Positions 40,102 through 44,770 of a stretch of 57,784 nt of DNA are shown here, piece after piece. The DNA is taken from the NCBI GenBank assembly GCA_009927665.1, contig RFMM01000180.1, forward strand, positions 1-57,784, written 5' to 3'. This stretch comes from Actinomycetota bacterium (GTDB lineage: Bacteria; Actinomycetota; Acidimicrobiia; Acidimicrobiales; Ilumatobacteraceae). The position numbers and the translations under genes were made by a program. Each line of letters starts with the position of its first letter. Position 1 is the first letter of the stretch. The notes below the pieces were generated by a model that saw only the letters and a program-made list of their open reading frames with translations, had not been told where the DNA came from and searched no databases.

Positions 40102-40392
40102 TCAGTTCTCGAACAGCGGGATCTGTTGACCGGGGGCGAGTGTGACGATGGCCCGCTTCGAACCATCACGCACACCGACTCGATTGGTGCCGCGGGTGAT
40201 GCGGCGCTTGCCCAGACGGTTCAGGGTGTTGACCTTCACGACCTTCACATTGAAGATGCGCTGCACTGCGTCACGAATCTCGGGCTTGCTGGCCGAGGGG
40301 TGCACTTCGAAGGTGTACACGCCGACGCTCGAGCCGGCGTAGCTCTTTTCCGACACCACTGGGCGGATGATCACGTCGCGTGGGTCTTTCAC
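40102..40392 (-). CDS. rplW: 50S ribosomal protein L23
   Basis: L23 docks the trigger factor and signal recognition particle at the tunnel exit. 96 residues starting [20 protein letters not shown] with the [20 protein letters not shown] segment. Overlaps rplD by four bases. Confidence 0.96.
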
Positions 40393-41012
40393 TTTGCACC
40401 TCCGGCGGTCGTGGGCAGGCTGTCTTGCGAGAACACGATCCAGTCGTTGACGAGCACGTCATAGGCGTTGAGTTCGCTCGTCAGAACCACCTGCACATTG
40501 GCAAGATTGCGCATGCTCTTGGCGGCATCGCTGGTCGCACTCTTCACGACGACCATCACGTTGCCGCTCGTGCCGAGCGCGGCAAGCGCGGCAGCGCCGG
40601 CCTTGGCGTTGGGCTTGTCGAACGACCAGGCATCGACGACGATGACCTTGCCGTCGCGAGCGCGATCAGAAAGAGCAGAACGCAACGCCAATTGCACCAT
40701 CTTTTTCGGGGTGCGCTGGCTGTATTTGCGTGGCGTCGGGCCAAGCGTGACTGCGCCACCGACGAACTGCGGCGCACGAATGGAACCCTGACGGGCGTTA
40801 CCAGTGCCCTTCTGGCTGAATGGCTTCTTGCCACCACCACGCACTTCGGCACGACCCTTGGTGCTCTGTGTACCCGCTCGACGATGGGCCAACTGAGCGA
40901 CAACGACTTGATGCATCACGGCGACGTTCGGCACCAAACCGAAGAAGTCGTCTGACAATTCAACGCTCGCGGCGTTCTTGCCGGCGGGGTTCTTCATCGT
41001 GAGTTTGGCCAT
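40389..41012 (-). CDS. rplD: 50S ribosomal protein L4
   Basis: L4 is an early assembly protein that reaches the exit tunnel; in E. coli it also autoregulates the S10 operon through the mRNA leader. The 207-residue product has [40 protein letters not shown] and a [11 protein letters not shown]-like segment. Standard position after rplC. Confidence 0.96.
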
Positions 41013-41014
41013 GA

Positions 41015-41656
41015 TTACTTGCCGCCCTTCATCGCGTTACGAACGATGACGACGCCACCGTTCGGGCCGGGCACTGCACCCTTCACGAGCAGCAAATTGC
41101 GCTCAGCGTCGGCTTGCACGATTTCGAGATTCATGATGGTTACTTGCTGATGGCCGAGATGGCCGGCCATGCGCATGCCGCGGAACACGCGACCAGGAAA
41201 CGAGCGCTGACCAATCGAGCCCGGTGCGCGGTGGTGTTTGTGGTTGCCGTGCGCAGCACCCTGACCGCGGAAGTTGTGGCGCTTCATGCCACCGGCAAAG
41301 CCCTTGCCGCGGCTGACTGCAGTGACGTCAACGATTTCTCCTGCCACCAACTTGTCGACACCAATTTCTTGACCAACTTCGAAACCGTCGACGGAATCAA
41401 GGCGCAGCTCGACCAGACGACGACCCGGCGCCACGTTGTGCTTGGCGAAGTGGCCCGCTGCCGCCTTGGTGAGTTTCTTGGCGTCTTTTTGCCCAAAGGT
41501 CACTTGCAATGCGTTGTAACCATCGGTGGCATTCGTCTTCACCTGCACGATGCGCGCAGGCTCGACGCGCAGAACGGTGACGGGCACGACGCGACGGTCG
41601 GCCGTCCACACTTGCGTCATGCCGACCTTCTCGCCGACGATCGCTTTCTGTGCCAT
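41015..41656 (-). CDS. rplC: 50S ribosomal protein L3
   Basis: L3 starts large-subunit assembly and borders the peptidyl transferase centre. The 213-residue protein has KAIVGEKVGMTQVW, VTAVSRGKGFAGGMKRHNFR, GQGAAHGNHKHHRAPGSIGQ and RVFRGMRMAGHLGHQQVTIM. A ribosome site (AAAAGG) lies six bases before the ATG. It is separated from rpsJ by htrA and a structured leader, so its transcription must pass or restart after a terminator. Confidence 0.97.
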   Translation of the reverse strand: MAQKAIVGEKVGMTQVWTADRRVVPVTVLRVEPARIVQVKTNATDGYNALQVTFGQKDAKKLTKAAAGHFAKHNVAPGRRLVELRLDSVDGFEVGQEIGVDKLVAGEIVDVTAVSRGKGFAGGMKRHNFRGQGAAHGNHKHHRAPGSIGQRSFPGRVFRGMRMAGHLGHQQVTIMNLEIVQADAERNLLLVKGAVPGPNGGVVIVRNAMKGGK

Positions 41657-41963
41657 GGTGAACCTTTTCTGTTGCGACTATTGCTGCTCTTCGCGTGCGC
41701 CCGCACCGCGGCGACGGTCTCGTTCGCTTCCACGAAAAAGCCCCGCTCGGCAAAGCCGGCGGAGCCCGAGATCGTTTTCGCTGTGAGGTACCTGACGAAT
41801 CAGGCGCACACAGACATCAATTGGGTGTGGGGTGAACCCCACGAAGTCAACTGACGACTGCGACTGGTCTGGCGTGAGCCGTTCCAAACGCGACTTGGCA
41901 CGCTATCGGGCGTTTGCGCCTGCCCCACCGGGGCCGAGGTTTGCCCGAGCGAGGGCCGTGGGC
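41657..41963 (-). promoter_or_regulatory. 307-bp intergenic leader between htrA and rplC
   Basis: The only gap over 300 bp in the window. In the direction of transcription it holds three hairpins: GTGGGG/CCCCAC (41827-41842), CCTGA/TCAGG with a CGAA-type tetraloop (41791-41804) and the terminator at 41735-41765. About 80 nt then remain before rplC. No convincing promoter was found, although TTGACT occurs near 41850. The order fits a transcription attenuator or r-protein-responsive leader; that is inference. Confidence 0.5.
41735..41765 (-). terminator. Intrinsic terminator upstream of rplC
   Basis: On the minus strand GCTCCGC, then CGGC-TTT-GCCG, a bulged A, GCGGGGC and TTTTT: an 11-pair GC-rich stem with a U-run. 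It ends the htrA transcript or attenuates transcription into rplC. Confidence 0.8.
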
Positions 41964-43109
41964 CTAGTCCTTGGGGCGTGCGACCAGCGTCGCCGAGAGC
42001 GTCAGGCGCTCACCATCACGCACAAGGTCGATCTCAATGGTGTCGCCCGGGCTGCGGTCACGAATCGCCGCCACGAGACCGGCCTGACCGTTGACCGGCT
42101 CGCCGTCGACCGCCAGCACCACATCGCCCTCACGAATGCCCGCCGTCTCAGCTGGAGAATCGGGCTGCACGGTGGTGATGATCGAGCCGGCTCCACCGTC
42201 AGTGCGGGCATCAATGCTGACGCCGAGAAAACCTTCGGTGCGCTCTTCGCCAGCTGCTTGACTGCGCAATTGCTCGAGCACGGCCAGTGTCTCGTCGACG
42301 GAGATGGCAAACCCGATGTTGTTTGCCGACGAGGTGGAATCGCCACGGGCTACGGCCGTGTTGATGCCCACGACTTCTCCCCGCATGTTGACGAGCGGTC
42401 CACCCGAGTTGCCTGATGAGATTGCGGCGTCGGTCTGGATGAGGCTGTTCAATGCACCAGAGTCGGTGAAGATCGTGCGCTTCAAGGCCGACACGATTCC
42501 GGTCGTCACGCTCGGACCACCATCAAGGGCGAGTGCGTATCCGATGGCCACCACTTGGTCGCCAACTCGCACGCTTCCAGGTTTGGCAAACGTCGCAGCA
42601 ACGAGACCGCTCGCATTCACCTTGAGCAGGGCGAGATCGTTGCCGGTGTCGAAAGCGAGCACTTCTGCCGTGACTGGCTCGGTGTCGTTCGCGAATCGCA
42701 CACGAACATCCGTGGCACCTTCGACAACGTGTGCGTTGGTGAGAATCTCACCGTTGCTCGACACCACCACACCGGTTCCCGTAGCTTCTCCGTCGCCCAT
42801 TGCGCCGTTCACTTGCGCCGAGATGGTGACGACGCTGTTGGCCAATCGTTGCGCCACGAGCGCAACTGACGTTGCATCTGTTGACTCGACATCTGACACC
42901 ACGGGGGCAGACGTCACCTGCGTGTACGGCTCGTCATTCGTCGCTGTCGAAGCGTCATTGAGTTGTGTCGCGATCACGCCGCCGATGAATCCGGAAATCA
43001 CCGAGAGCAGTGCAGCGAGCAACGCGACGCGCCAAACGCGAGGCTTGGCCGGCGACCGTTGTGATCCGGTGTACTCCGAGGGCGGTGGCGGGGGTAGCAC
43101 GAAACTCAT
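41964..43109 (-). CDS. htrA: Membrane-anchored HtrA/DegP-type serine protease with PDZ domain
   Basis: A 381-residue S1C protease. Residues 1-24 are a proline-rich cytoplasmic tail, 25-50 one membrane helix (RVALLAALLSVISGFIGGVI), then an extracytoplasmic linker. The trypsin-like domain carries the triad H127 (TNAHVV), D158 (NDLALL) and S235 (SSGNSGGP). A C-terminal PDZ domain starts near EGFLGVSIDA. Such proteases degrade misfolded exported proteins. The ATG at 43109 is used; GTG/ATG at 43151/43148 would add 14 residues. The gene sits between rpsJ and rplC, splitting an otherwise standard S10 operon, and is followed by a terminator. Confidence 0.9.
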   Translation of the reverse strand: MSFVLPPPPPSEYTGSQRSPAKPRVWRVALLAALLSVISGFIGGVIATQLNDASTATNDEPYTQVTSAPVVSDVESTDATSVALVAQRLANSVVTISAQVNGAMGDGEATGTGVVVSSNGEILTNAHVVEGATDVRVRFANDTEPVTAEVLAFDTGNDLALLKVNASGLVAATFAKPGSVRVGDQVVAIGYALALDGGPSVTTGIVSALKRTIFTDSGALNSLIQTDAAISSGNSGGPLVNMRGEVVGINTAVARGDSTSSANNIGFAISVDETLAVLEQLRSQAAGEERTEGFLGVSIDARTDGGAGSIITTVQPDSPAETAGIREGDVVLAVDGEPVNGQAGLVAAIRDRSPGDTIEIDLVRDGERLTLSATLVARPKD

Positions 43110-43231
43110 AGGGAGTTGTCTAGCGCCACACTGTCGCGGCTGCGACATCACTCTGGGCGCTTCTCACCAAGCTCTTAACCGTGCTTATGACGGTGTTTTC
43201 ACGGCTTCAACCGCCGCGTGTCTGAGTTCAC

Positions 43232-43546
43232 TCAGTTCATCTTGATTTCGATGTCAACGCCGGCGGCAATCTCGAGGCGCTGCAGCGTCTCGACCGTCTT
43301 GGCATTGGCATCGACAATGTCGATGATGCGCTTGTGAATGCGCATTTCGAAGTGCTCACGCGAGTCTTTGTCGACGTGCGGTCCGCGAATCACCGTGTAG
43401 CGGTGCTTGTCGGTGGGCAGCGGAATCGGCCCACGCACCGTGGCGGCAGTGCGCACGACCGTCTCAACGATCTTGCGCGACTCGTTGTCGAGCACGGCAT
43501 GGTCGAACGCCTTGAGGCGAATGCGAATGCCCTGCTTTTGCGCCAT
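43232..43546 (-). CDS. rpsJ: 30S ribosomal protein S10
   Basis: S10 is a head protein and also NusE in antitermination. The 104-residue protein begins [20 protein letters not shown], has [20 protein letters not shown] and [20 protein letters not shown]. It follows tuf by 39 bp. A CTGAG/CTCAG mini-hairpin (43222-43235) overlaps its stop codon. rpsJ is normally followed by rplC; here htrA intervenes. Confidence 0.97.
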
Positions 43547-43585: not shown

Positions 43586-44770
43586 TTACTGGAGGATCTT
43601 CGTCACTCGACCGGCGCCAACGGTGCGGCCACCTTCGCGAATCGCGAAGCGCAGACCTTCGTCCATGGCGATCGGCTTGCCGAGTTCGACCGTCATCACG
43701 ACGTTGTCACCAGGCATCACCATCTCGGTGCCCGAAGGCAACTGAATGGTGCCGGTTACGTCAGTGGTGCGGAAGAAGAACTGCGGACGGTAGTTGTTGA
43801 AGAACGGCTTGTGACGGCCACCCTCTTCCTTCTTCAGAACGTACACCTGACCCTCGAACTTGGTGTGCGGGGTGATGCTGCCAGGGGCGCACAGCACCTG
43901 ACCACGCTCGACGTCTTCTTTCTTCGTGCCGCGCAAGAGCGCGCCGATGTTGTCGCCGGCCTGACCTTCGTCAAGCAACTTGCGGAACATCTCGACGCCC
44001 GTGCACACGGTCTTCTGGGTGTCACGCAAGCCGACGATTTCAATTTCGTCGCCGGTGTTGACCTTGCCCTGCTCAACCTTGCCGGTCACGACGGTGCCAC
44101 GACCAGTGATGGTGAACACGTCTTCGATCGGCATGAGGAACGGCTTGTCGAGCTCACGCTTCGGCTCGGGGATGTAATCGTCACAGGCCTTCATGAGCTC
44201 CATGATCTTTTCTTGCCATGCGGCATCGCCCTCGAGCGCCTTGAGCGCCGAGACACGCACGACCGGCACATCTTTGCCCGGGAACTCGTACATCGTGAGC
44301 AGGTCGCGAATTTCTTCTTCGACGAGCATCAGCATGTCTTCGTCATCGACCATGTCGGCCTTGTTGAGGGCGACCACGATGTAGGGCACGCCGACTTGGC
44401 GGGCCAACAGCACGTGTTCACGCGTCTGGGGCATCGGGCCGTCAGTGGCGGCGACCACGAGGATCGCACCGTCAACCTGAGCGGCACCGGTGATCATGTT
44501 CTTGATGTAGTCGGCGTGACCCGGCATGTCGACGTGCGCGTAGTGGCGCTTCTCGGTCTCGTATTCAATGTGCGCGATCGAGATGGTGATACCGCGCGCC
44601 TTCTCTTCGGGCGCCTTGTCGATCTGATCGAACGGGGTGTACTCGGCCAGACCCTTGTCGGCGAGTGTCTTGGAGATGGATGCGGTCAACGTGGTCTTGC
44701 CGTGGTCAATGTGACCCATCGTGCCGATGTTGACGTGGGGCTTGTTGCGCTCGAATTTACCCTTCGACAT
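43586..44770 (-). CDS. tuf: Elongation factor Tu
   Basis: EF-Tu delivers aminoacyl-tRNA to the ribosome. The 394-residue protein has the P-loop [14 protein letters not shown], the [20 protein letters not shown] segment, the guanine motif [10 protein letters not shown] and domain 2 and 3 signatures ending [11 protein letters not shown]. Standard str-operon position after fusA; only one copy is seen in the window. Confidence 0.98.

Follow-up and report, generated by a model that had tools for sequence, protein, structure and literature searches.

The S10 operon of Escherichia coli is regulated by ribosomal protein L4 (PMC10931766). Like the L4 leader of E. coli and its relatives, the element described here is structured and stands before the same ribosomal operon; feedback by a protein of that operon is, in the present case, a guess. 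Unlike it, the present leader precedes rplC and not rpsJ, its core motif is absent upstream of E. coli rpsJ, and it has no match in Rfam.

A second point of comparison is provided by Eckert and Weinberg (2020). In Table 1 of that article and the passages around it (PMC7247131), an L4 leader before rplC and rplD is listed only in Archaeoglobi. This r-leader, likewise a prediction, resembles ours by its position in front of rplC-rplD and differs in being archaeal. The article's main text contains no word beginning with ‘Acidimicrobi’, and the passages of PMC2965389 that were consulted mention neither rplC nor rpsJ. Our literature collection, which is limited, yielded no paper title on an rpsJ-rplC junction with htrA, and no account of an S10-operon or rplC leader in Acidimicrobiales or Ilumatobacter, so that the novelty of the latter is provisional. 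With regard to gene order, cyanobacteria and plastids offer a parallel from a different phylum: there, rpsJ closes the str operon, following tuf, and is separated from rplC as it is here.

The window, i.e. the whole stretch of 57,784 nucleotides that was analysed, belongs to a 1.77 Mb genome assembly in 268 contigs, whose nearest named relatives are records labelled Acidimicrobiia and Ilumatobacteraceae (best HtrA identity about 90%). On its minus strand, the ORFs follow each other in the order tuf, rpsJ, htrA, rplC, rplD, with these features:

43586..44770, minus strand: tuf (EF-Tu), ORF named from its sequence, directly upstream of rpsJ, an adjacency kept in close relatives
43232..43546, minus strand: rpsJ (S10), TIGR01049/NF001861 above cut-off
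43117..43122, minus strand: TAGACA, possible -10 element of htrA (perhaps leaderless), suggested by conservation in the genus
41964..43109, minus strand: htrA, complete, 381 aa, ATG start, with Pfam and NCBIfam matches
41900..41905, minus strand: TAGCGT, putative -10 element of an rplC promoter, within the invariant CCGATAGCGT (11/11 genus genomes)
41728..41821, minus strand: predicted core of the rplC leader RNA (model R1; helices P1, P2, P3), from covariance model and covariation
41781..41813, minus strand: predicted P1 (41808-41813 with 41781-41786) and P2 (41801-41804 with 41791-41794), enclosing the conserved internal loop NNG / DACC, with compensatory changes
41735..41765, minus strand: predicted P3 hairpin (41740-41765), then UUUUU, from hairpin prediction and leader alignment
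41015..41656, minus strand: rplC (L3), the first of the genes that follow the leader, TIGR03625 3.2e-85, above cut-off
40389..41012, minus strand: ORF directly behind rplC, by this position presumably rplD (L4), whose product is our guess for the ligand of the leader

The htrA gene and its place in Ilumatobacteraceae

A first, sequence-only reading of this DNA had singled out a complete HtrA gene between rpsJ and rplC on the same strand, which the ORF and its family matches bear out. The product matches Trypsin_2 (3.5e-33) and, at residues 293-375, PDZ_2 (5.4e-17) in Pfam, and contains the protease motifs TNAHVV, NDLALLK and GNSGGPL, to which we assign the putative catalytic triad H127, D158 and S235. 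Its relatives in the PDB include DegP-like (2.7e-46) and PepD (4.3e-33) proteins, and no other full-length HtrA match occurs in the host genome. With its trypsin-like domain, triad motifs, N-terminal hydrophobic segment (as in a membrane-anchored protein) and single C-terminal PDZ domain, the protein resembles HtrA/DegP (Do) proteases and actinobacterial HtrA/PepD. It has their domain make-up and scores below the cut-offs of the curated NCBIfam HtrA models, which represent named subgroups (TIGR02037, Do family: 8.2e-70, 235.9 bits, cut-off 416.2; NF047968: 214.7 bits, cut-off 470); beyond this, only the position of its gene beside the S10 operon is unusual.

Within the genus of the host, rpsJ, htrA and rplC follow each other in this order on one contig in 11 of 13 genomes, the host's own included; in one of the two exceptions (G009) all three genes went unmatched, and in the other (G011) they lie on different contigs. 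In this genus, htrA is the sole inserted gene, at a distance of 35-143 bp from rpsJ on one side and 273-384 bp from rplC on the other. That the arrangement could be due to chance or to a local misassembly, as had been considered from the outset and as the fragmentation of this metagenome-assembled source (268 contigs) may suggest, is a negligible prospect and in practice excluded, because the same order recurs in ten further genomes of the genus and across the family.

Our family survey covered 150 Ilumatobacteraceae genomes, with an rpsJ match in 109, an rplC match in 125, and both on one contig and strand in 85; in the remaining 65, one gene was unmatched or the two lay on separate contigs. 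The 13 weakest HtrA rows, none of them on its own genome's rpsJ or rplC contig, were left out. In 79 of the 85 genomes, the rpsJ-rplC gap contains an HtrA match, often alongside other genes. Among the six without it (G020, G021, G067, G090, G106, G137), the gap is shorter than 600 bp only in G067 (364 bp) and G137 (305 bp). While the arrangement is thus common in the family and not the oddity it had seemed, its distinctiveness stands in the comparison with 24 genomes from 24 other Acidimicrobiales families (22 with an rplC match), none of which has an HtrA match near rplC.

In a midpoint-rooted tree of 56 HtrA proteins, the 51 rows from the family form one clade (support 100/99), against five rows from other families; two of the 51 (L021, L026) lie on contigs that carry neither rpsJ nor rplC. 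Since the HtrA rows of the family form a single clade, htrA was probably in place early in Ilumatobacteraceae, in agreement with the initial impression that it is no obvious recent import. The htrA insertion is ordinary for its family, and the neighbouring leader is the point of interest.

As the rpsJ-rplC gap spans 0.3 to 27 kb in the 85 genomes, other genes are gained and lost there. The idea that they constitute one system was rejected in view of the mixed Pfam content of 20 proteins scanned from family genomes: ABC transporter, PhyH, methyltransferases, NeuB, CorA, luciferase-like and Mutator transposase. This cargo is named by Pfam matches only, because the greedy ORF caller also reports antisense ORFs. 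Several genera carry a four-gene ABC transporter cassette between rpsJ and htrA (L179:446-4435), and a protein of about 400 aa without a family above cut-off repeatedly adjoins htrA in many genera (L174:1710-2909 and relatives; cluster c5). A tandem pair of htrA genes lies between rpsJ and rplC in L151 and L180 (genus g21). Many family contigs start inside the 3'-terminal part of tuf, shortly ahead of rpsJ (L018-L020, L024, L071, L075, L078-L081 and others), which looks as though assemblies tend to break at tuf because of repetition or variability.

The insertion could also be understood as functional coupling, with an envelope-stress protease scaled to ribosome output. The persistence of htrA at this place in 79 of 85 genomes despite turnover of the other cargo, and its distance from rpsJ, as short as 35 bp in the genus, would fit this explanation. 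However, other genes separate rpsJ from htrA in several Ilumatobacteraceae genera, six of the 85 genomes lack htrA in the gap, and the gene may simply be inherited in place. Furthermore, a conserved TAGAAC or TAGACA precedes the start codon of htrA by about 7 nt in all 11 genus genomes and could be its own promoter, an alternative to the expression behind fusA-tuf-rpsJ that the sequence-only reading had put forward. On balance, we regard coupling as quite unlikely.

The conserved element in front of rplC

In the 11 genus genomes, the spacer between htrA and rplC is mostly variable, with the exception of the invariant CCGATAGCGT and a subsequent near-invariant stretch of about 100 nt, which includes two compensated pairs within the genus. 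The same element is seen in front of rplC throughout the order. The alignment of 39 leaders (A2) yields the helices P1, P2 and P3, with 117 double-change cells compared to 38 after shuffling and far fewer in slid registers, its P1 percentages being biased by seeds that were picked partly by P1 pairing. Because of this choice of seeds, the covariation test was repeated on anchor-only loci (67 of 101). Here, P1 has 334 canonical cells, compared to a mean of 267 and a maximum of 290 in 2000 shuffles, and P2 has 233, compared to a mean of 192 and a maximum of 206; as shuffling does not keep relatedness, these figures are not exact probabilities. The window leader folds only modestly better than shuffled sequences when taken alone (z -1.83, 14 of 200 as good), and the case for the leader therefore rests on comparison.

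No Rfam family was found for the leader, the best on the window sequence being sX13 with 15.7 bits (E 0.87) versus a gathering score of 50. For mimicry of an rRNA binding site, the P1-P2 loop was also searched for in E. coli rRNA, with no sign of such mimicry there: 23S gave 4 sites versus 3.4 in shuffles, and nothing was seen in 16S, where the scan was made without the shuffle comparison.

Upstream of the leader, a promoter-like pair (TTGNNN-16..18 nt-TANNNT, within 150 nt) is present in 43 of 70 loci, where mononucleotide shuffles give 2.8; its distance from the leader is mostly 65-100 nt. In the window, the -35 partner of TAGCGT is weak by eye. Another small hairpin, variable in sequence, is often present between the promoter-like site and P1 (L143-L170, by eye).

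The hairpin at 41739-41757, some 205 nt beyond the stop codon of htrA, had at first been taken for htrA's own terminator; it lies downstream of the promoter-like site and is better assigned to the rplC leader, as its P3. More generally, the conserved element might be a terminator or boundary of the upstream unit, be it rpsJ or htrA, instead of a regulator of rplC. P3 of the genus indeed has the appearance of a terminator, a GC hairpin followed by UUUUU. Yet the element keeps a distance of 11-193 nt from rplC whichever gene lies upstream, it is preceded by the promoter-like pair, P1 and P2 covary, and P3 usually lacks a U run, none being found in the other rows of alignment A2. We thus give this explanation little credence. 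Since P3 comes without a U run outside the genus, it is likewise doubtful that a single attenuation mechanism is shared by the whole order.

The rpsJ-rplC junction and its leader across the order and the phylum

Our order survey comprised 148 genomes, of which 109 are from outside Ilumatobacteraceae with the two genes, rpsJ and rplC, on the same strand of a single contig. After removal of three rplC fragment rows (G043 twice, G044:C33), the gap is shorter than 600 bp in 64 of the 109 genomes and at least 600 bp in 45; short gaps in Acidimicrobiales mostly measure 170-500 bp. By contrast, among 133 Actinomycetota genomes outside the order, the gap is below about 120 bp in 112, 120-600 bp in 16 and at least 600 bp in five, all five from the families f71 and f91; these lengths are approximate, with 27 bp subtracted for model ends and rplC fragment rows dropped (G348, G406, G353, G322, plus any unlisted). 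The closeness of rpsJ and rplC, which the sequence-only reading had called conserved, is thus the rule outside Acidimicrobiales, where 128 of 133 gaps fall below 600 bp. Given this order-wide shift compared to the closed gaps of the phylum, we ascribe the loose junction to the order: it is a feature of Acidimicrobiales and not of htrA. The closeness of tuf to rpsJ is not special to the order, since tuf was seen to precede rpsJ in 18 of 20 order regions and in 11 of 20 phylum regions. In f71 (G307, G361, G414) and f91 (G370, G378, G385, G392), gaps range from about 0.4 to 7.8 kb, and the only R1 match, in G385, is weak and on a contig other than that of rplC.

For the leader, we used the covariance model R1 with a threshold of E 0.01 or better; the window leader, itself a training sequence, scores 79.7 bits (6e-19). 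R1 matches 126 of the 148 order genomes, and 103 of the 125 outside training. Without nine rows with E above 0.001, 125 genomes have a match on the same strand as rplC and at a distance of 11-193 nt (median 47) upstream of it. It is found beside rplC in all 39 Ilumatobacteraceae genomes searched, 17 of which are in training. In the order without Ilumatobacteraceae, it occurs in 44 of 45 genomes with a gap of at least 600 bp, in 50 of 62 with 150-600 bp and in neither of the two with less than 150 bp. As the leader is also present where the gap has no room for a gene the size of htrA, the data do not support the earlier proposal that htrA is what uncouples rpsJ from the rest of its operon. The genome search found no R1 match in 22 of the 148 genomes. 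Nine R1-negative loci were inspected: two match R1 in a local search with laxer filters (L201, L214), three hold the P1-P2 core (L199, L237, L238), and a strict motif search upstream of rplC found nothing in L205, L209, L210 and L239.

Among 148 genomes from the phylum, strong R1 matches are restricted to 11 of 12 members of the order and a class-mate, G311, whose rpsJ and rplC are some 255 bp apart. Weak matches (E 0.003-0.08, 19.6-25.8 bits) occur in six more genomes, and R1 finds nothing in three further class-mates, whose gaps are all closed. The strict core motif occurs upstream of rplC in 61 of 100 loci, versus 0.04 expected, and upstream of rpsJ in none of 20 order regions, none of 20 phylum regions and not in E. 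coli. The leader may be specific to Acidimicrobiales and near kin and is apparently undescribed. We also considered that it had moved from a place in front of rpsJ and rejected this, as neither R1 nor the motif left a trace upstream of rpsJ in the 20 phylum regions or in E. coli.

A proposed regulation of the S10 operon from rplC

We propose, with a probability of roughly 0.7, that the rplC operon of Acidimicrobiales has its own promoter and a leader of the ribosomal protein type, and that the region between rpsJ and the leader can consequently take up genes with no harm to rplC expression. The S10 operon would start at rplC and not at rpsJ, which would remain next to tuf as the last gene of the str cluster, and the space between rpsJ and the leader would be a boundary between transcription units. 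The cis-acting leader would have a structured core of about 95 nt, with P1 and P2 around the conserved internal loop, followed by P3. Insertions would land between rpsJ and the promoter, and the leader would stay beside rplC. By this account, htrA would have settled there once, early in Ilumatobacteraceae, and have been inherited since, to become the sole inserted gene in this reduced genome, transcribed from its own promoter or by read-through.

From the comparative data, we infer promoter activity upstream of the leader, and feedback through the leader may act by attenuation or by a block of translation. In the genus, P3 and the subsequent UUUUU could attenuate transcription, with translational control or another path elsewhere in the order. 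The element probably senses one of the operon's own ribosomal proteins. For this ligand, analogy with the S10 operon of E. coli makes L4 the first, tentative candidate, at a little under even odds; L3 is named next but seems rather unlikely, and the chance of a ligand other than these two is also fairly low.

Ribosomal operons are a textbook case of a fixed gene order held by shared regulation, and here a whole order of bacteria breaks with it at one point, the likely cause being a portable leader with its own promoter. It is possible, at somewhat less than even odds, that a new class of ribosomal protein leader, confined to Acidimicrobiales and near kin, took over the control of the S10 operon at rplC and thereby opened an order-wide landing site, in which htrA stayed in Ilumatobacteraceae. 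If so, this would extend the short list of leader classes, locate the start of the S10 operon in a large, mostly uncultured group and explain the accumulation of genes at the rpsJ-rplC junction: a self-sufficient rplC would have turned a highly conserved bacterial junction into a landing site for genes throughout the order.
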